Shown here: positions 8,927 to 50,769 of the stretch, piece after piece
Numbering within the stretch: the stretch's first letter is position 1
Layout of the letters: the number at the start of each line of letters is the position of its first letter
NCBI GenBank assembly: GCA_036426205.1
Contig: CM071568.1
Coordinates: forward strand, 117,170,311 to 117,234,310
DNA: 64,000 bases
Source: Ascaphus truei
Lineage: Eukaryota > Chordata > Amphibia > Anura > Ascaphidae
Direction: 5' to 3'
Position numbers and translations under genes: made by a program
Notes under the pieces: generated by a model
What the model was told of the DNA's origin: nothing
Databases searched by the model: none
Seen by the model: the letters and a program-made list of their open reading frames with translations, nothing else

Positions 8927-9936
8927 TGCTGCTAAACTCCTTGAACGTCTTGATTCTCTCGCTTGCTCCACTTTCTCAACACCTATTCTCTCCTAGAACC
9001 TCTACAATCCTGCTTCCGCACTGCTCACTCCATTGAAACAGCCCTCATTAAAATAACTAATGACCTCCATGCTGCCAAAGACAGAGGTCATTACACTCTG
9101 CTCATATTACTCGACCTCTCTCCATTATTTGACACTGTGGACCACCCTCTTCTCCTTCGCATTCTTCATACTCTTGGTATTCGTAACAAAGCTCTATCCT
9201 GGATCTCCTCTTGCCTCTCCCATCGTACTTTCAGTGTCTCTTCTGCTAACACCTCCTCCTCTACCGATCTCTCTGTGGGGGTACCCCAGGGCTCTGTCCT
9301 GGGACCTCTCCTCTTTTCTCTGTACACACTTTCTCTAGATGACCTAAATGACATCTCTTGGGCTTAAATATCACTTCTATGCTGACGACACACAAATTTA
9401 CTTTTCAACCCCTGACCTTACACCTGTGGACAGACCAACGTTTCTGAATGTCTCTCTGTGATATCATCCTGGGTGGCCCTCCGCCGACTTAAACTTTAAC
9501 ATGGCAAAAACAGAGCTCCTCATACTTCCTCCCAAACCTGGCCCTACTACCTCCTTCCACATTACTGTTGGAAGTACTATCATTCACCCAGTAGCCCAAG
9601 CACGCTGCCTAGGGGTCATACTCGACTCCTCTCTCGCATTCAAAACGTTTCTAAAACCTGTCGCTTTTTCCTCCACAATATTACAGAGATACACCATTTC
9701 CTCTGTTGCTTGACTGCTAAAACTCTGACTCAGGCCCTCATTCTCTCCCGTCTCGATTACTGTAACCTCCTGCTGTCCGGCCTTCCTGCCTTTCACCTGT
9801 CTTCCCTACAATCTATCCTAAACGCTGCTGCCAGAATCACTTTACTCTTTTCTAAATCTGTCTCAGCGTCTCCCCTGCTGAAATTCCTCTCCTGGCTTCC
9901 TATTAAATCCCATATCACACATTCAATTCTCCTCAC
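8927..9936 (+). mobile_element. L2-type LINE, 5' truncated, upstream half (RT)
   Basis: The + strand encodes an L2/CR1-group reverse transcriptase. Visible motifs are [63 protein letters not shown] and the catalytic FYADDTQIYFS (9375-9405), with intact YADD but in a different frame from the upstream block. Several frameshifts disable it. It is nearly collinear with the reverse copy at 43650-47220, which shows that this copy begins at the [21 protein letters not shown] position. It stops at 9936 because a Tx1/L1 element inserted; the LINE resumes at about 14988. Confidence 0.92.
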
Positions 9937-10770
9937 TTTTTTTTTTTTTTTTGTAACTTAAGTTTTTATTGGTTTATAACAGCATGAGTTACAATACATT
10001 AAAAGGTACATGTTGTCTTGGTAATCCGGATTGTCACAGTAAATATAATGATATTGATAATAATGTAACAGAACTTCAGGATGTGGCCTCTCTGGTGAGC
10101 CGAGAGGGGCACTAAGACAAGGCCAGCCTTCCCGGTTTAACCTAACGGTTTCGGGCCAACTTTCTATCAAAGGGGACAAGACACCCCAGTTCACTTACTG
10201 TCTCATTAACAGACCCACAGACAAACAGGCGGACAATCGAATCACCCAGACTACATACACTCTGACAAGTAGACAACTATACAGTTAGACAGACAAATAT
10301 AAAGACCGACAAACAACCAGACAGACGAACAAACCAGTGGACAAACATTGAGCCAAGAGGTAGGGAAAGGAAGGGAAAAAGGGGGGTGTATGGGGGAGAG
10401 GGCGAGGGGCAAATAAAGGGGGGGAGTGCTGGTGAGTGTGGGTGTATCTCCGAGCTGTCGAGCGGTCCCTCCAGATTCCTAGAAGCTTAGCTTCTTCTCT
10501 TTGTGACCGTATATTTCATGTCTAAGTTATGGGCACCAGGGATATATTGTGAGGGCACCTCGCATCCCCCAAGGAGAATGGACCTATTTATTATCATAGC
10601 CAAATTGATGTCCTTTCTATCCCCGGGATATCTGTCTGTGCCAGCCAAGGCGTCCAGACTTTTAGAAAATTGTCGCCAGTGTCGTTAACCAAACGCGTTA
10701 ATTTTTCCATCTGGCAAATAAACCAAATGCGATTCCGAATCTTTGGGATGGTTGGTATATCTGAACTTTT

Positions 10771-14978: not shown

Positions 14979-15530
14979 TCTCCTCACGTTTTTAAAGTTT
15001 TACACTCTTCTGCTCCTCCTTTCATCTCAGCCCTAATTTCTCGCTATGCACCATCCCGACTCTTGTGTTCTGCTCAAGGATGTCTTCTCTCTACTCCATT
15101 TGTATCTAAAGCCCTCTCTTGCCTTAAACCTTTGTCACTGATTGCCTCACCCCTCTGGAATGCCCTTCCCCTCAATAACTTACTAGCACCCTCTCTATCC
15201 ACCTTTAAGACCCACCTTAAGACACACTTGCTTAAAGAAGTATATGAGTAGCACCGTGGCTAATACTATACACATGATACATAAAGCTTGGCCCCCTGTA
15301 GACGCACTTACCAGAATTCCCTCCTACTGTCTCTGTACGTTCATCCTACCAATTAGATTGTAAGCTCTTCGGAGTAGGGACTCCTCATCTGAAATTTTAC
15401 TTTTATGTCTGAAGCACGTATTCCCATGATCTGTTACTTGTATTATTTATTTAAACGATTGTCACGTGTATTACTACTGTGAAGCGCTATGTACATTAAT
15501 GACGCTATATAAATAAAGACTTACATTACA
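14979..15530 (+). mobile_element. L2-type LINE, downstream half with 3' tail
   Basis: Resumes the L2 copy split at 9936: the [13 protein letters not shown] and SPLWNALPL-type C-terminus (in frame at 14964-15251) is followed by the 3' UTR. The last 100 bases (tgtgaagcgctatgtacatt...gctatataaataaag) are the L2 3' terminus also seen at 43650-43720 and as a stub at 25190-25235. Confidence 0.9.
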
Positions 15531-18332: not shown

Positions 18333-18870
18333 TGTAATGGGGACTTATGCCTGTTGAAGAAACTATCTCTAAAATCCAGCAGGGATCTGGTTAAGTGCAG
18401 CAGGCAATTAACCAGACTCCACCTGGCCAATTAAGTCTTTAAGAAAAGCCTCCTGTTGGATACAGGAGAGAGATTCCTTAGCTCACATTTGGGCTGACAG
18501 AAGGAGAACAGAGAAGCCTGCACACCGACACTGTCTTGAGCACAAAGACTGTGCTGAGATCAAGACACCCAGACACCTATAGTTCCTGGACACCGAGGAC
18601 CCAGGAACCTGCCAGAGACTGACATGGAGGGCCACCTGCTTAAGGTAACTCCTGAGACTTTGGGGTGACAGGCTGGTAATGGGAATATCCCTCCAGTCCT
18701 GCAGACAGGGTCTGGGAAAGTATGTTAGCCCTTACCAAGGGGATATGGGTTTGTTATTTTGTTGTTTTTGTATGTTTTGGCTGGATAAAGGAACAGGCTC
18801 AATAAAGCCAAGATATAATTGCACCCTAAAAGGAGTCTCCATTTGCATACCTCTGCACACATCTCTTAGA
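18333..18870 (+). mobile_element. Solo LTR, same family as the LTRs at 42690-50764
   Basis: This 538-bp stretch starts TGTAATGGGGACTTATGCCT and is collinear with the LTRs of the 42690-50764 element: CAATTAACCAGACTCCACCT, GAGGGCCACCTGCTTAAGG, a CTCAATAAAGCC polyadenylation signal and a CATCTCTTAGA end. The 5-bp flanks GTCAC (18328-18332) and GACAC (18871-18875) agree at 4 of 5. It is in the opposite orientation to the full element and has no internal region. Confidence 0.85.
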
Positions 18871-42097: not shown

Positions 42098-42689
42098 GTA
42101 TTGAAATCGATGATCTGTAAAATAAAAATAAAAAATAGGACTTCAGTACGCGTAAGATTGTCTACTTATAACTTGTCTTATAATATCTTGTCCTAAGATG
42201 CATAGTTGTCTAGGCTTTGATGCCATTTAATTGACCCTCTCGGGTGTGCTACTCCAGGACCAATGCGGCTACTACAACTTGAGCTGAATCCTAATTTGGA
42301 TAATAAATGTGACATCTTGCACGTTTTTACTAAAAGATTACCGTATAACTAGGCTGTTGCATGCAATAACTTGAGTCACCATATATTATGTAAGTGAAGC
42401 AAGTAACGCTTTGTCATCCTGATTTTTCTTTTTATTTGAAAGTGCATGTTTTTGGTTAAAAAGACATCAAGCAAACGATTAATCTAATTGTAATAGTTCA
42501 GTATACAATGTTAGTGGGGCAATATAGTGCATAAGGATGTCCCTCATTAACTGAGCGTCATATTCAACACTGGTAAATCCTGTCCATCTAAAACTACCAG
42601 TGGCCCATTTTAACTGCTTTTAGCAACAAAAGACAGTACACAATTCCCTCATATCCTATCATGTTGGTTAGCAGACGTGAATTGATGTG

Positions 42690-43159
42690 TGTAAGAGATG
42701 TGTGCAGAGGTATGCAATGGAGGCTGTTTTTAAGGAGAAATTAAAATAAGGCTTTATTGCCTGTTCCTTTTAAACAATACATCAAACAAAAATATACATA
42801 AAACAATAAACACCTATCCCTGTGTAAAGGGTAACTTACTTCCCCAGTCGCTCTCCCCACTTATCACCCCAAAGTCTCAGCGGTACCTAAACACAGTTGG
42901 CCCTTCAGGTAGTTGTCTGCTTGAGGGTCCAGGCATAAAGGTTTGGTCCCTTTTTGTCTTGCTCTCAGACCACAGCCCTCTGTTTCCTTATGTCAGCTCC
43001 CCTTGTGAGCTAAGGAATCTCCTTTCTGTTTCTCAGACCAGGCTTTGTCTAAAACACCTAATCAGCCAGGTGGAGTCTGGTTGATTGCCTGGTTGATAAA
43101 CCAGCGCACTACTGGATTTAGAGGCAGTTTCTCTCCAACAGGGATAAGTCCCTGTTACA
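42690..43159 (-). repeat. 3' LTR of the lamin-like element
   Basis: 470 bp. On the - strand: TGTAACAGGGACTTATCCCT start, CAATAAAGCC polyadenylation signal (complement at about 42751-42760) and CATCTCTTACA end. It lacks roughly 45 bases present in the 5' LTR (a GCAGGAAGGGG-type segment near 50425-50460). Otherwise the two LTRs are close, with scattered substitutions. Confidence 0.9.
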
Positions 43160-43178
43160 TAACTCCCCTGTTTGTGGG
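43160..43178 (-). promoter_or_regulatory. Polypurine tract next to the 3' LTR
   Basis: On the - strand AAACAGGGGAGTTA sits directly before the TGTAAC start of the LTR, in the place where plus-strand priming occurs in LTR elements. Short and interrupted by TT, so only a moderate match. Confidence 0.6.
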
Positions 43179-43179
43179 A

Positions 43180-43641
43180 AGCTCGGGCTTACCACGGCCA
43201 AAGTCCATCCTTCCACTCTCCCTCAAGATATCTCTGTGACTCGAATGAGAGTGGATGGAGTACGAGAACCCTCAGTCCCGCTGGGATTGGCTCCCCTTTC
43301 TCCAGGTTATTAGTGTCTCCTCCAGAAGGTGCTTGAGATCAGCAGTCCTCGGTCGCTCAAGGAGGACTTTTTCCAAGTTCAGTCTTTCTACTGACCGTGT
43401 GGTCATGAGGTTTTCAAAGCGTCAGGCGATTTTCTCTCTCTGTAGGCAGACTGTATGGCACCAGTCGCAGAGCGTTTACACATAGTTTTCTCTCACAATC
43501 TTTTCCATGGACTCCAATTTAGCACCAAATGTCCATTCCTTGTAACCCTTGCTCAGGTCTTGCAAAAGCCTCTGTCAGCTTGCTTCTGAATTCTATCTGA
43601 TGTCCGGAATCTATTTCTACTATTCTAGACTTGTGCCATTT
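43180..43641 (-). pseudogene. Lamin-like rod segment, second part, and element C-terminus
   Basis: Across the L2 insertion the - strand resumes MKWHKSRIVEIDSGHQIEFR, SKLTEAFARPEQGLQ, matching lamin [29 protein letters not shown]. About 45-50 lamin residues between the two parts are absent, a loss that predates the L2 insertion. The rest, in shifted frames (SVERLNLEKVLLERPRTADL, LKHLLEETLITWRKG), stays coiled-coil-like to near the purine tract, then GRGKPELPTNRGVM. I do not recognise this final part. Confidence 0.72.
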
Positions 43642-44149
43642 CATGGTATTGTATTGTATGTCTTTATTTATATAGCGCCATTAATGTACATAGCGCTTCA
43701 CAGTAGTAATACATGTGGTAATCAAATAAATAACAGATAATATAAATAACAGATCATGGGAATAAGTGCTTTAGACATAAAAGTAACATTTCGGAAGAGG
43801 AGTCCCTGCCCGGAGGAGCTTACAGTCTAATTGGTAGGTAGAACGTACAGAGACAGTAGGAGGGAGTTCTGGTAAGTGCGTCTGCAGGGGGCCAAGCTTT
43901 ATGTATCGTGTTCAGAATATCCACAGTGCTATTTATTGCTTCTTTAAGCAAGTGTGTCTTAAGGTGAGTCTTAAAGGTGGATAGAGAGGGTTCTAGTCGG
44001 GTACTGAGGGGAAGGGCATTCCAGAGGTGTGGGGCAGTCAGTGAAAAGGGTTTAAGGCGGGAGAGGGCTTTAGATACAAAGGGGGTAGAAAGAAGACATC
44101 CTTGAGAAGAACGCAAAAGTCTGGATGGTGCATAACGAGAAATTAGGGA

Positions 44150-45928
44150 TCAGATGTAAGGAGGAGCAGAAGAATGTAAAGCTTTAAAAGTGAGGAGAAG
44201 AATGGAGTGTGAGATGCAAGATTTGATCGGAAGCCAGGAGAGGGATTTCATGAGGGGAGATGCTGAGACAGATCTAGGAAAGAGTAGAGTGATTCTGGCA
44301 GCAGCATTTAGGATAGATTGTAGGGGAGACAGGTTAGAGGCAGGAAGGCCGGACAGCAGGAGGTTACAGTAATCAAGACGGGAGAGAATGAGGGCCTGAG
44401 TCAGAGTTTTAGCAGTCGAGCAACAGAGGAAAGGGCGTATCTTTGTTATATTGCGGAGGAAAAAGCGACAAGTTTTAGAAATGTTTTGAATGTGAGGGGC
44501 GAATGTGAGAGAGAAGTCGAGTATGACCCCTAGGCAGCGTGCTTGGGCTACTGGGTGAATGATTGTAGTTCCAACAGTAATGTGGAAGGAGGTAGTAGGG
44601 CCAGGTTTGGGAGGAAGTATGAGGAGCTCTGTTTTAGCCATGTTGAGTTTAAGGCGTCGGAGGGCCATCCAGGATGATATAGCAGAGAGACATTCAGAAA
44701 CTTTGGTTTGTACAGCAGGTGTAAGGTCAGGTGTTGAAAAGTATATTTGTGTGTCGCCGGCATAGAGGTGATAATTAAAACCAAAAGATGTTATTAGGTC
44801 ACCTAGAGAGAGTGTGTACAGAGAAAAGAGAAGAGGTCCCAGGACAGAGCCCTGGGGTACCCCCACAGAGAGATCAATAGAGGAGGAGGAGGTGTTAGCA
44901 GAAGAGACACTGAAAGTACAATGGGAGTGGTAGGATGAGATCCAGGATAGAGCTTTGTTCCGAATACCTAGAGTATGGAGAATGTGGAGGAGAAGAGGGT
45001 GGTCCACTGTGTCAAATGCTGCAGAGAGGTCGAGTAATATGAGCAGAGTGTAATGACCTCTGTCTTTGGCAGCATGGAGGTCGTCAGTTATTTTAGTGAG
45101 GGCTGTTTCGGTGGAGTGAGCAGTGCGGAAGCCAGATTGTAGAGGGTCTAGGAGAGAGTATGTGTTGAGAAAATGGAGCAAGCGAGAGAATACAAGACGT
45201 TCAAGTAATTTAGAGGCAAAAGGCAGGAGGGAGACAGGTCGATAGTTAGAAAGACAGGTAGGGTCAAGCTTGCTGTTTTTGAGTAATGGTATGACTGTTG
45301 CATGTTTGAAGGAGGATGGAAAGGTTCCAGAGCAGAGGGAGGAGTTAAAAATGTGTGTGAGCGTAGGGATTATAGTAGGAGCAAGATGTTTTAGGAGATG
45401 GGAGGGAATGGGGTCGAGAGGGCATGTGGTAGAGGGAGACGAGGCGATCAACAGCGACACATCCTCCTCTGAGACAGTGGAAAAAGAGTCAAGGAAGGCA
45501 GGAGGAGAGTTAGGAAGAGGTGTAGGATGGGAGGAAGAAACAGAGAGGATGTTCTGCCGTATGGATTCTACCTTTTCCTTAAAATAGTCAGCAAAGTCCT
45601 GAGCGGAGATGGAGGAAGGAAAGGCAGCTGAGGGTGGTTTGAGTAGAGTATCAAAGACAGAGAACAGTCGGCGTGCGTTAGACTTGTGCATGTTGATTAG
45701 TGAAGAAAAGTAGGCTTGTTTAGCTTGCGAGAGGGCAGAGTTGAAACAGGATAGCATAAATTTGTAGTGAAGGAAGTCAGCGAGAGTGTGAGACTTCCTC
45801 CAGAGGTGTTCAGAGGAACGAGTGGAGGAACGCAGCATGCGCGTGTGGGAATTTAGCCAGGGTCTAGGGTTAGAAGGGCGAGTGCGGCAGAGAGAACGCG
45901 GGGCATGTAGATCAAGTGACGAGGACAA
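44150..45928 (-). pseudogene. L2 LINE ORF, reverse transcriptase, 592 open codons
   Basis: Long frame with RT motifs in order: [91 protein letters not shown], then [13 protein letters not shown] and [15 protein letters not shown]. The catalytic YADD is YAGD (44751-44762), so the first catalytic Asp of the pair is lost, and the protein is inactive even though the frame is open. The C-terminus continues at 44116-43820 (LKPFSLTAPHLWNALPLSTR). Confidence 0.9.
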
Positions 45929-46377
45929 GGCAGAGTTGTAGTTCCTGACCAGGTTGTCAGGGTCTGTAGCAGAGCTGAGAGAGGAGAGGGAGGAGTGTAA
46001 AGTGGACTCAAAGTCAGGTAAGTGAATAGAGCGCAGGTTTCTGCAGAACCGGGGGGTAGATGGAGGTGGAGAAGGGGAGAAGCGAGATAGAGAGAATGAG
46101 ATGAGGTGATGGTCAGAGAGAGGAAAAGGGGAAATGGAGAAATCAGAGAGAGAGAAGTTTTTAGTGAAAACCAGGTCTAAGTAGTGGCCATCCTTGTGGG
46201 TGCTGGCTGCAGTCCACTGTTGAAGGCCAAAAGAAGAGGTTAGAGAAAGAAAGCGGGAAGCCCAAGGGAGAGAGGCGTCATCAATGTGGCAATTGAAGTC
46301 CCCAAGGAGAAGAACAGGGGAGTCTGAGGAGAGAAAGAAAGAGAGCCAGGATTCAAAGTGAGAGAGAAAGGCAGAAG

Positions 46378-46475
46378 GGGGATGAGTAAAGGTAGGTCTC
46401 AGTTACAGCAAAGAGAAGCAGGGAGTGAGAGAGAAAGAAGTCATGTACAGAGAGGAAGGGGGATGAGTAAAGGTA
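46378..46475 (-). repeat. Templated duplication inside the L2 LINE
   Basis: ggtctcagttacagcaaagagaagcagggagtgagagagaaagaagtcatgtacagagaggaa at about 46395-46458 is a copy of 46711-46773. It is bracketed by a doubled ggggatgagtaaaggtaggt (about 46379 and 46458). The patch ends both open frames with the same MTSFSLTPCFSLL string. Confidence 0.85.
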
Positions 46476-47218
46476 GGTGGGCGATAGATGACCGCCACAT
46501 GGACAGGGAGAGGAGAGAAGATCTGGACAGTGTGAACCTCAAAGGAGGGAAAAGCAAGAGAGGGGGGAATAGGAAGGGTTCGGTAACGGCAGAGAGAGGA
46601 GAGCAGGAGCCCCACGCCTCCACCCCTGCCATCAGGGCGCGGAGTGTGGGAGAAGGAAAGGCCACCGTAGGAGAGGTCAGCTTCCAGAGCAGAGTCAGAC
46701 TGAGTGAGCCAGGTCTCAGTTACAGCAAAGAGAAGCAGGGAGTGAGAGAGAAAGAAGTCATGTACAGAGAGGAACTTGTTAGAGAGGGAGCGAGCATTCC
46801 AAAGGGCACAGGAGAAAGGCAGAGAGGAGGGAGGGTGGCAGGGGATGGGTATGAGGTTGGAGGGGTTGACACCAGAAGGAGTAGAAGTTGCATGTGGGAG
46901 GCGAGGACGAGAGCAAGTTGAAATAAGACAGGGACCAGGATTGGGAGAGATATCCCCAGAAGCAAGGAGGAGACGCATGGATAGAAAGAGAATGTGTGAG
47001 GATGATTTGTAGGGGTGTTTTTTAGTGCAGGGGATATAGCTGTGTGGTGTCAGAGGACGCAGGTAAGAAAGGAGTTCATGTGAACTGAGGAGTGGTGAAG
47101 GAAGGAGAGATGGGGATATATGAATAAAGTTTGAGACATACTGAGGCTGGTAAAAAGAAGTGCATAATTTGAGAAGAAGGGAAGTCACAGCAAATATAAA
47201 TGGTAAAGGCAGCATCAC
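46403..47218 (-). pseudogene. L2 LINE ORF, N-terminus with 2A-like motif and endonuclease
   Basis: The frame starts MMLPLPFIFA two bases inside the element and is hydrophobic and Ser/Leu-rich for about 85 residues. It then has GDISPNPGP at residues 88-96 (46931-46957), a 2A-like ribosome-skipping motif (D-x-x-x-N-P-G-P). The endonuclease follows from about residue 135 (CALWNARSLSNKFLSVHDFF, TETWLTQSD, GGGVGLL). It ends in a duplicated patch near 46403. The rest of the endonuclease (46400-45930) is in other frames. Confidence 0.8.
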
Positions 47219-47228
47219 AGCATGGTAT

Positions 47229-47560
47229 CACTAAAGAGCATTTAAGAATAGCTATTTGAGTTTTCAGCTCTTGAAGCTGTCCTTCTGCACTTCTTTTTCC
47301 ACTCAATGCAGTTGCCAGTTCAGCTTCATTGGAATTGGGTTGCGATTCCACATCTCCCAGTTGATTCAGAGTAAGAGTAAACCTTTTCTCTATTTCTGAT
47401 CTGCAGCTGCCGGTGCTCCTCCCGGATGTTGTCCAGCTCCAGCTGCAGCCAGACCCTCTCATTGTTCATGTGTTCCAGCAATTTGCGGGCATCGGCCATC
47501 TTGGCCTCATAGTGCAGTGTTAGGCTGGCCCCTTGACAAACAGATATCTCTTCACTCTCT
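47229..47560 (-). pseudogene. Lamin-like rod segment, first part (coil 1A/1B)
   Basis: On the - strand it reads LTLHYEAKMADARKLLEHM, NNERVWLQLELDNIREEHRQ and LQIRNREK, then after a one-base shift LGDVESQPNSNEAELATALS and GKRSAEGQLQELKTQIAILK. This tracks the lamin rod segment with YEAEL-DARK, ERARLQLEL, REEFKELKARN, NSKEAALSTALSEKR and EGELHDLRGQVAKL. Residue matches run over about 85 positions without introns at the places where lamin genes have them, so the source was a spliced RNA. It ends at 47229, where the L2 insertion begins. Confidence 0.8.
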
Positions 47561-47995
47561 TCCTTTTTTTGCGAGCTTGATCTTGAGCTCAGCAATCTGC
47601 GTCTGCAGAGGTGCAAGTTGCTGGGATGTGTGTTTAGCTGCCAGCTTTAGCTCTTCCACTTCTAGGCTTTGCTGCAAGTTTAACTCCTCGGCGAGAGATC
47701 CCTGTTTCTTGACTGCATCCTGCAATTCTCCTCTCAGGGTCTTTATCTCTTCACTGTGCTTTCTCTGAGCTTGCTTCCACGTATCCTTCATTATATTGTG
47801 GAGCACTGTGGATTTCTTTGCTAGGGCCACAGCTGCTTGCCTCAGTTTCTGGACCTTCTTGTGCTCCCTCTTGTAGCGAGTCACCTGGCCTCTAAGCTTG
47901 GCCTCCAGCAAAGCTCTGGTGTTGTTCAGGGTAGCCTTCAATTCCTCTTGCTTCTCTGCGGGGAAGCACTGGGTAATCAGCCGTTCCTGCAGCAT
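47552..47995 (-). pseudogene. Element protein, middle coiled coil
   Basis: 147 open codons, MLQERLITQCFPAEKQEELK, then KKVQKLRQAAVALAKKSTVL, EEIKTLRGELQDAVKKQGSL and QTQIAELKIKLAKKG. High Leu/Lys/Glu/Gln content and heptad spacing show a coiled coil. It leads by a frameshift near 47560 directly into the lamin-like part. Identity unknown. A cellular long coiled-coil protein is an alternative source. Confidence 0.6.
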
Positions 47996-48139
47996 TTGTA
48001 CTTCTTTAACAGCCTGCAGATTTTCTTCCTGCAGAGTTTACTGTTTCTCCTCAGCATTCTGGAGGTGCGTACGCAGACCTTGCCATTTGTTCTGCAATAT
48101 CTGCTCTGCTTGTGTGTTTTGCTCCAATGCTTCAAACTT

Positions 48140-48843
48140 TTAATCTTCCAATAGTTTCTTTATTTTTTGTAGCTTGTGCAGCTTTTCCTTCTTTTCATTG
48201 ACATGGTCAGTCACATCAGAATTTTCTTCTTTCAACCTTGTATTTTCTCTTTTTACAGTTTCCTCCTTGTAGTCCTCCTTCCATTTACGCACTTCTGACT
48301 TGAGACTCCCGGTCTCCTGGTGCAAGACTTTTATCTCTAGGTTGAGGGTCTGAAGCTCCTTCTGAGAGACTTTAAGATCCATACTAAGACTGAGGATAGC
48401 TTTTTGAGATGTCCAGCTCCTTAATGACACAGAAGTTCCCTTTTAAAGACTTCCAGTTCTGTGTGACAACTGCTGATCTCTTGGTGGGAGGCATCCAGTG
48501 CTATGCGGAGAGTATGAACCTCATTCTGTAATATGTCCACCTCTGTCCGGACACTGTTGACCTCCTGGCGAGAAACATCCAGCTCTAACTTAAGTGTATG
48601 GGCTTCTTTCTGGAAGATCTCCCGTTCGGTACCTAGCCTGTGAAACTCTTTCTGGGAGATTTCCAGGCCGGCACGGGGACTGCGAATTTCTGTTTGAGAG
48701 ACTTCGATGTCCATACCGAGGCGGTCAACCTCCTTTTGAGAGCCTCCGAGTTCTGCACCGAGTTTGCGAGACTCCTTCTGATATAGTCCAAGCTCTATAC
48801 TGAGACAGTGCCTTTTTTTAACCTCCTTCTGTTTCTGCTGCAA
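48140..48843 (-). pseudogene. Element protein, tandem 14-residue coiled-coil repeats
   Basis: From 48843 the frame reads at least nine consecutive 14-residue units of the pattern L-x-x-S-Q-K-E-x-x-x-L-x-x-E, for example LGGSQKEVDRLGMD, LEISQKEFHRLGTE and LDVSRQEVNSVRTE. After a frameshift near 48425 the series continues (LKVSQKELQTLNLE, IKVLHQETGSLKSE) and then runs into a less regular KWKEDYKEETVK... coiled coil. Fourteen residues are two heptads, so the product is a long coiled-coil rod with 42-base DNA units. I know no retrotransposon protein with this design. Confidence 0.75.
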
Positions 48844-49528
48844 GTATCTCCTGTTTCAATCATTTACAGAGGAGAGCAGAGTCCTGCCTGGTATTTTTCA
48901 GGGCATCTTCAGGACTGGTCAAGGGATCGTCGCTCATGGGTTCCGGCCCTTCTTCCTCACTGTCGGCACCAGACAAACACTTCTTTGGAGTACACAACTT
49001 TTGCCTTGGGCCCTCTGAATATTCTCTCATCCATGGGACGAATTCTCCATTTCCTCTAGGCTGCAGGGCATCTCAGTCCCCCTTTTCCTCTGTGGGATCT
49101 GTGGACGTGTCTGATCCTTCCATGGTAATTGGAGAACCTCTTTTTCCGCCTTTTTGCTTTGGACAACTCCGTTCTATCAGGAGTACTGGAGTCTCCTTCT
49201 AGATTTGAAACTTCATCAGTTTCACAGCATCCACCATGCTTTTTTTGCAGTTGCATTAGCTGGCAGGAATTTTCGTGGTCATAGAGAACATGTTCGGTGC
49301 GTACTAAGTTTAGGCACCTCCACCATCCTAGGGGTGTTTTGTAGGTGTGTCTTGTTTCAGGTTCCCCATAAGAGATATCTTCATTGTTATCCTCATAGGA
49401 CTGGAAGGGCCACTCTTCTGTGGTGTAGGGTCCTCCATTTTGGTGGTATCAGGTGTATTTTTCTTCCTGACCTCGGGAAGCGCTATTGCAGTTGTTTTCA
49501 CTGTATTCGCTAGAACCCCATCTGGTAG

Positions 49529-49924
49529 TCATACAGGTGGGCAGACTTTGCTTGCAAAGTTTGTAGTTCTCACAGGCTTCTCTGTAGAATTTTTCTTCTT
49601 CTTTACTTTGGTATGTTTTGAAACATCAGCAGTACTGTGCACACATTCTTTCTCATCAGTGATACGGGATGTGCACTTGCTAAGTAGTACGTCTGTACCT
49701 TCTTTGTGACCACAGCGTATTTCTTGCTGCTGCAGTTCCTTGGCTCGTTGAAAAAAATATTCCTCTGGCTGTTGCCCTTTTTCTGTGGCCACGCAGGGAT
49801 CATCCTCATCATCCAAATAAGGCCTAAAGGGACTCTGCTCTGTGCGGCTGGGCTCTTTACACCAGGAACACATTTTCTTCCCTATTCTTGCAGAGTCTGT
49901 ATTTGAATTCAGCTGGGCGGCCAT
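49529..49924 (-). pseudogene. Element protein, N-terminal part (131 codons)
   Basis: The frame begins MAAQLNSNTDSARIGKKMCS at 49924, about 325 bases after the primer site, a normal leader length. It contains CSWCKEPSRTEQSPFRPYLD and an EEYFFQRAKELQQQEIRCG helix, then Lys/Thr-rich sequence, and stops at a TGA after CPPV. The same frame is open after the stop (LPDGVLANTVKTTAIALPE...), so the stop is probably a mutation. I do not recognise the family. The CSWC...CGHK cysteines do not make a retroviral CCHC box. Downstream pieces (49256-48860) include a KAKRRKKR basic run and an acidic SGADSEEEGPEPMSDDP run in shifted frames. Confidence 0.65.
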
Positions 49925-50234
49925 TTTAAAATCCTATGGGTTTTTTTTTCCTTTCTTTTCTTTCACAAGGGGTGGGGTAGACTCTGGTCACAGCATTAGT
50001 CCCTTGTGTGGGTCACTGTATGTCGCAGTCCTCCCAGTCAAACTGTGGCATTGTGGCTTTCTACAGTGCAGTGTAGTTTTCCTGCCTGGATGTGTAGTCC
50101 TTTAATTCCGGTCACTTCTGCATATGTTTTGTTGCTCAGACTGTTGCAGGAACTTTATGCTGGCAAAAACACAAATATTTTCATAGGCGGTCTCTAGGAC
50201 CCCTTTTGAACTTCAAGGGCCACCTCTCATCTCA

Positions 50235-50247
50235 ACTTCTGACACCA
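50235..50247 (-). promoter_or_regulatory. Primer-binding site, tRNA-Leu type
   Basis: Two bases inside the 5' LTR the - strand reads TGGTGTCAGAAGT, complementary to the 3' end ACTTCTGACA-CCA that I recall for vertebrate leucine tRNA (CAA). The 13-base match fits minus-strand priming; beyond it the match fades. Confidence 0.75.
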
Positions 50248-50249
50248 TA

Positions 50250-50764
50250 TGTAAGAGGTGTGTGTAAAGGTATGCAATGGGGACCATTTTTAAGGTGAAA
50301 TTAAAATAAGGCTTTATTGCCTGTTCCTTTTAAACAATACAGCAAACAAAAATATACATAAAACAATAAACAAATATCCCTGTGTAAGGACTAACTTACT
50401 CCCCCAGTCCCTCTCTGCAAGGCTGAGGGAGGAAAGCCCCTTACCAACTTTATCAGCCCAAAGTCTCAGCGGAATCTTGAAGCAGGTGGCCCTTCAGGTC
50501 AGTGGTATCCGGGTAGTTGTCTGCTTGAGGGTCAAGACATAGAGGTCTGGTCCCATTTGGTCTTGCTCTCAATCCACCGCCCTCCTTTTCCTTATGTCAG
50601 CTCCCTTGTGAGCTAAGGAATTTCCTTCCTGTTTCTCAAACCAGGCTTTTTCTAAAACTCCTAATCAGCCAGGTGGAGTCTGGTTGATTGCCTGTGTGCA
50701 ATTAACCAGCACACTACTGGATTTAGACGCAGTTTCTCTCCAACAGTGATAAGTCCCCGTTACA
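50250..50764 (-). repeat. 5' LTR of the lamin-like element
   Basis: 515 bp. On the - strand it starts TGTAACGGGGACTTATCACT and ends CACACCTCTTACA, with CAATAAAGCC about 80 bases before the end. Promoter and start of transcription would lie here. The downstream sequence (50249 and lower) is the element leader. Confidence 0.9.
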
Positions 50765-50769
50765 ATGTG

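Follow-up and report, generated by a model that had tools for sequence, protein, structure and literature searches.

A Non-Autonomous LTR Retroelement Family of Ascaphus truei With a Chimeric Coiled-Coil and Lamin Frame in the Place of gag-pol

Structure of the Element

The stretch analyzed here, called the window, comprises 64,000 nucleotides of the genome of the frog Ascaphus truei. Its positions 42690-50764, read on the minus strand, form a long terminal repeat (LTR) element with two LTRs, a target duplication, a primer site and a purine tract. It is a defunct member of a non-autonomous family of LTR retroelements. From 5' to 3', the interior consists of a leader, the start of a reading frame (NT), a long coiled coil (CC), a segment of the nuclear lamin rod (LAM), a long interspersed nuclear element (LINE) and a downstream piece (INT3), which opens with the remainder of the lamin-like block. 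Taken as a whole, we read the family as one in which a chimeric NT-CC-lamin frame stands in the place of gag-pol, the lamin part being captured from LIII/LMNB3 and the frame being kept, and we give this reading a probability of about 0.85. The parts of the window copy are the following.

42685..42689 and 50765..50769: target duplication ATGTG, 5 bp, perfect, read from the letters
50250..50764, minus strand: 5' LTR, 515 bases, TG...CA ends, 89.3% identity to the 3' LTR
50230..50247, minus strand: primer site TGGTGTCAGAAGTTGAGA, found by motif scan two bases inward from the 5' LTR; recurs in several sister copies
Between the 5' LTR and NT, minus strand: leader, ~300 bases
49529..49924, minus strand: NT, start of the reading frame, frameshifted downstream; homologous pieces occur in sister loci
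49832..49870, minus strand: zinc-knuckle-like motif, degenerate in the window copy (the histidine and the last cysteine are gone)
47647..48859, minus strand: CC, long coiled coil, with 42-base (14-residue) repeats at ~48646-48806
47232..47646, minus strand: LAM, first block of the lamin rod segment, significant match at ~47230-47560
43650..47220, minus strand: LINE inserted in the lamin segment (RVT_1, E 4.1e-33, and an endonuclease domain)
43642..43649 and 47221..47228: target duplication of the LINE, CATGGTAT, 8 bp, read from the letters
43500..43641, minus strand: second block of the lamin rod segment, read by eye; joined to the first block in sister copies (tblastn)
43160..43169, minus strand: polypurine tract AGGGGAGTTA, adjoining the 3' LTR, read from the letters
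42690..43159, minus strand: 3' LTR, 470 bases, TG...CA ends

A sequence-only reading of this DNA had recognized the retroelement by its LTR pair, its perfect 5-bp duplication and its purine tract, and all three are confirmed: the LTRs align over 469 columns (Kimura two-parameter distance (K2P) 0.115). The primer site is likewise present, and we take it to be a putative tRNA-Leu-like site. Sister copies have a GGGAGGTA-type tract ahead of their 3' LTR. In five other copies, the LTR divergence is 0.103-0.124, one of these values coming from a partial LTR. Neutral rates are of the order of 1-3e-9 per site and year, at which the insertion in the window would be, as a rough guide, ~20-60 million years old, a crude figure. 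The reading frame of the window copy is disrupted at several places, by frameshifts, stops and the LINE. Elsewhere in the window, 536 bases at 18333-18868 share ~69% identity with the element LTR in reverse orientation and represent a diverged LTR from a related family.

The two separate lamin stretches described at first in the window are genuine homology, but they constitute a single block, divided by the later insertion of the LINE. None of the 38 sister loci has this LINE, presumably of the CR1/L2 type, at that point, and it is private to the window copy among the loci read; in one of them (L044), a related LINE piece lies at a different point of the lamin block. Relatives of the LINE are found in the window at 8932-9940 (90% identity) and 14979-15530 (88%). 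It also contains a perfect 64-base direct repeat (46394-46457 and 46711-46774, 317 bases apart), a recent duplication.

No gag-pol domain was found by domain scan in the seven non-LINE frames of the window, nor in five frames from four other copies. The absence of gag-pol from the internal region, as first reported, thus stands for the frames scanned, and no sister copy with an ordinary gag-pol appeared among them. The family is filed as non-autonomous because of this absence. Four interiors measure ~3.2-4.0 kb. A capsid match was also absent from the element frames checked.

Copies across the Genome

The LTR query gave 41 matches (40 scored places) in the genome, and the CC-LAM query gave 42 (40 scored places), with an identity of 81-91% outside the window. 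Among the 39 non-window CC-LAM places, 38 were read as sister loci, 19 of them with ~1.5 kb flanks and 19 of ~10 kb. These loci were picked by their likeness to the window stretch, hence the share of LTR copies that carry the cargo is not derivable from them; the candidate numbers 5,082, 5,614, 8,147 and 3,604 are first-look figures, not copy counts.

The lamin piece is present in 38/38 sister loci, all of them being matches of the CC-LAM query. In 32 of the 38, LAM runs on into INT3 after 9-10 bases, and in the remaining six, this continuation is missing (truncation, deletion or other sequence). The order that recurs in the sister copies is LTR-leader-NT-CC-LAM-INT3-LTR, and LTR sequence, in several cases incomplete, flanks both sides in eight of the 19 loci of ~10 kb. 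Because this order repeats around the lamin piece, the lamin-bearing frame is a family trait and not a single accident. The cargo had been described as a lamin-like coiled-coil gene and nothing else. The lamin is indeed present and common to the sister copies; the cargo, however, is a chimera of which the lamin is just one part.

None of the seven non-window loci read from the LTR query has the family interior within 1.5 kb. These are solo-looking LTRs, with a 5-bp duplication that is perfect in four, has one mismatch in two and is absent in one. At L030:1642-9887, two cargo-bearing copies with LTRs of different subfamilies lie side by side.

Origin of the Lamin Segment

The proposed match to the lamin rod lies well above chance: against lamin A/C, the frame at 47326-47646 gives E 1.4e-8 and the frame at 47076-47465 gives E 2.1e-5. 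In PDB as well as the protein database, lamins are by far the top matches for the element frames. Protein searches with the frames of two other copies returned ten strong matches (2 + 8), all from Ascaphus truei; the next matches in the second search were the Bombina lamin-L(III), two Rhinoderma lamin-B3 isoforms and a fish protein. The copy L050 shows 44% identity to lamin across 208 residues. The coiled coil of the window alone had no match in the protein-database search or in PDB. For this non-lamin coiled coil, a possible likeness to RAI14/UACA-type proteins was considered.

The type of lamin was read from a tree of 19 rows, 13 from elements and two of frog LIII/B3, with three human lamin sequences entered by hand. 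The 13 element lamins form one clade (support 100/99), which is grouped with the two LIII/B3 rows at 100/100; its placement inside versus beside LIII/B3 received 47/0. Grouping of the element lamin with lamin A was rejected (approximately unbiased (AU) test, p 1e-6), as was grouping with lamin B1 (p 6e-4; B2 was not tested alone). Among the lamin types, LIII/LMNB3 is therefore the one with which the segment groups. The element and LIII/LMNB3 are alike in this homologous rod segment. They are unlike in extent: neither a lamin tail domain (PF00932) nor a full rod was found in the element frames scanned, the rod being present only in part, and matches to the Filament profile were mostly under the cut-off.

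In the host, the LMNA matches fall on separate exons (C8:75120861-75126118). L050, in contrast, spans lamin residues 65-272 continuously apart from small gaps and a single TAG, with no introns at the host exon borders; the lamin source was therefore a spliced mRNA. The spliced nature was read from L050, a copy seen without its LTRs. The lamin segment thus derives from spliced RNA and was captured once for the copies read. In the window subfamily, ~37-40 codons are missing within the lamin part, which reads as a later in-frame deletion. Skipping of exon 3 was considered as the cause and rejected: L050 retains the stretch, and the start of the gap is off the host exon border.

Preservation of the Reading Frame

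Insertions and deletions (indels) of frameshift size were divided into those common to at least three copies and singletons. The coding pieces show hardly any shared ones: 0 shared and 65 singleton for CC-LAM, 0/38 for the middle of CC, 0/33 for NT and 1/25 for LAM alone. The corresponding figures are 3/10 for the leader (11 copies) and 23/47 for the LTR. For CC-LAM, the Fisher p is 3.8e-8 versus the LTR and 0.0038 versus the leader; for LAM alone, it is 0.0029 and 0.099, respectively. The LTR is possibly faster-evolving, and the contrast is strong, not perfect.

Substitutions were compared as well. The ratio of nonsynonymous to synonymous changes in CC-LAM is 3.53 for singletons, against a neutral expectation of 3.59, and 2.45 for shared changes; these are under expectation in four of five reference frames (lowest 1.74). 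Against the divergent copy L030b, CC has a median ratio of nonsynonymous to synonymous rates (dN/dS) of 0.47 in 32 copies (0.83 and 1.14 in the shifted frames), and NT has 0.57 (shifted 0.69 and 0.86). Values of 0.60 for the CC of L012 (shifted 0.97 and 1.03) and 0.53 for the NT of L023 (shifted 0.80 and 0.68) were obtained, and 0.62 for CC-LAM within the window subfamily (shifted 0.69 and 0.86). Among the matches listed, frames of 725-820 codons uninterrupted by any stop occur at 24 or more places; for one of these, L049, the letters were read. In a young copy, L051, a GTAT run ahead of the start codon is followed by about four copies of a ~60-base unit (L051:720-960).

Several results weigh against a kept frame and against the family as we read it. 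The LTR control itself has dN/dS below 1 (0.74, 0.65 and 0.92), for which reason the values within the window subfamily are too weak alone. One antisense frame, with third positions in common, is close to the coding value, at 0.53 in the CC of L030b. Compared with L049, the lamin part has a value of 0.69 (shifted 0.63 and 0.96), with no clear constraint on residues, and the shared changes in the NT of L030 go in the opposite direction (4.75, expected 3.75). INT3 beyond the lamin has 0/27 shared and singleton frameshift-size indels, hence no contrast with CC-LAM (Fisher p 1), and among the indels that just two copies share, most have frameshift size in the coding pieces as well (CC-LAM 8/9). 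Finally, no autonomous partner turned up, although no search was aimed at one.

Part of this would suit a passive passenger, that is, a frame that is ballast without a role and owes its coding look to a few recent master copies. Non-autonomous elements are able to spread noncoding, the singletons are neutral, and the residue constraint of the lamin part is weak. Such a passenger does not easily account for the 23 shared indels of frameshift size in the LTRs versus 0-1 in the coding pieces of the same copies, nor for a dN/dS that still stays near 0.5 in the coiled coil of subfamilies separated by a synonymous divergence (dS) of ~0.4. We consider it rather unlikely, while taking it seriously. 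Overall, we take the data to mean that the lineage which spread preserved its frame, with the loose residue constraint expected of a rod. To the question of purifying selection raised at the outset, the indels answer that the reading frame is kept; selection on the lamin residues is not clear.

Later Chimeras and Other LTR Types

Some relatives depart from the window subfamily in the 3' half of the frame. In L048, of which the LTRs were partly read, a frame open over at least 717 codons continues from lamin into the rod of a nonmuscle myosin (Myosin-9 residues 1099-1193, E 2.4e-11; Myosin_tail_1 52.6 bits, cut-off 38.1). The annotated protein P0007 has the same coiled-coil start, followed by most of a tubby domain (TULP3, E 1.6e-110) and a tail common with P0003. 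P0010 combines the coiled coil with the part of WASP/N-WASP from CRIB to the C-terminus (E 8.2e-25). P0007 and P0010 are gene models, in which neighbors are possibly spliced together. Later replacement of the 3' half by other host segments thus seems to have occurred, with myosin shown in one copy and TULP3 and WASP coming from gene models. A further protein, P0002 (Ascaphus truei LOC142490643), consists of lamin, myosin rod and a partly repeated condensin subunit 3 (E 1.8e-45); its condensin tail was not counted as a capture, as the gene model may fuse neighbors.

The start of the frame is reminiscent of a zinc knuckle. P0001 has CX2CX4HX4C at its N-terminus, and several copies of the window family have a knuckle-like CX2CX4HX3C, reading like CSWCKEPSHTEQCP. 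In Pfam, the knuckle of P0001 reaches E 0.13 with the whole protein and 0.015 with the first 61 residues, both below the cut-off. The predicted fold of the annotated protein P0003 has a low overall confidence (predicted local distance difference test (pLDDT) 58.6), although most of its lamin part reaches ~85-92. Its helices lie at 53-75, 81-163, 170-303 and 308-473.

On C13, an L049-type copy differs in its 3' LTR (TGTCAGGATC...GTGACA) and in its purine tract; the 1.1 kb adjoining its start codon did not extend as far as a 5' LTR. Therefore, the cassette seems to occur under at least two LTR types. The tail of the L049-type frame presumably resembles the end of a Ty3/Gypsy pol. This copy, together with the RefSeq-type models that exist for relatives, is what would be expected if the frame belonged to a host multigene family or an exapted gene that LTRs just happen to flank. 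However, the window-family frame occupies the interior from primer site to purine tract, and LTR sequence is found on both sides in the eight ten-kb loci mentioned above, which makes a host gene very unlikely.

Discussion

Two further explanations can practically be dismissed. A processed lamin pseudogene that landed in one element, the alternative named by the sequence-only reading, would explain an intronless lamin part, but the lamin shares one frame with the rest, at the identical position in 38/38 sister loci and in deeper relatives, and the element lamins are one clade; for the copies read, it may be regarded as already refuted. Convergence of an unrelated coiled coil on a lamin-like sequence is conceivable in that coiled coils easily match each other and the CC piece has many weak Pfam matches, yet lamins are far the best in both databases, the L050 match is long, and the tree selects one lamin type.

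For the captured and kept lamin frame, a route can be proposed. Reverse transcriptase may have switched template onto a co-packaged germline lamin mRNA, and further template switches would have swapped the 3' half of the frame for other host segments. The family would move in trans, by the proteins of a putative autonomous LTR element. The encoded rod protein would serve the cycle of the element, most simply as an RNA-binding, multimerizing, Gag-like partner. A bolder version, unlikely in its full extent, is that the family makes its own Gag-like protein after the loss of the viral genes: a knuckle start joined to LIII and other coiled coils, with a 3' half repeatedly swapped (myosin, TULP3, WASP) and a cassette crossing LTR families, the rod carrying the element RNA in oocytes near the nuclear envelope.

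The nearest known system in kind is maize Bs1, also an LTR element with pieces of several host genes in its interior, acquired as RNA (PMC13317346). As in Bs1, a host coding segment from spliced RNA lies inside LTRs. Bs1 differs in being a plant element with pieces of enzyme genes, and the available portion of its description mentions no lamin or cytoskeletal rod, germline donor or subfamily-wide frame. Among vertebrates, the nearest are the crocodilian endogenous retroviruses (ERVs), LTR elements that captured the mRNAs of KIT-ligand and nectin3, with intact frames under purifying selection; that paper terms the capture of host mRNA relatively uncommon (PMC4299795). Those ERVs retain viral genes (no ERV domain is lost with KIT-ligand, and nectin3 replaces env), whereas none was found here in the scans. 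For modules across lineages, the LTR elements of bdelloid rotifers are nearest: one extra module occurs in different retroelement lineages, but those elements have gag and pol, and their modules are of enzyme or env-like type (PMC5408684). An element like the present one is not described in the accessible part of a survey of anuran genomes that includes Ascaphus truei (PMC12822217), and the literature searched, which comprised open-licence papers only, yielded no LTR element that had captured a lamin or another intermediate-filament gene.

Lamin LIII, the donor type, is reported to be specific to the germ line in Xenopus (PMC4053831). A germline-specific lamin donor fits a capture in cells whose insertions are inherited. 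The family appears to depend on a host-made frame, and it multiplied to many copies with this frame intact. Segments from further host genes are present in some relatives, and the element therefore looks like one that collects host messages. Its naturally occurring chimeras lend themselves to studies of the joining of messages by reverse transcription, and they open a route to testing coiled coils as substitutes for Gag.

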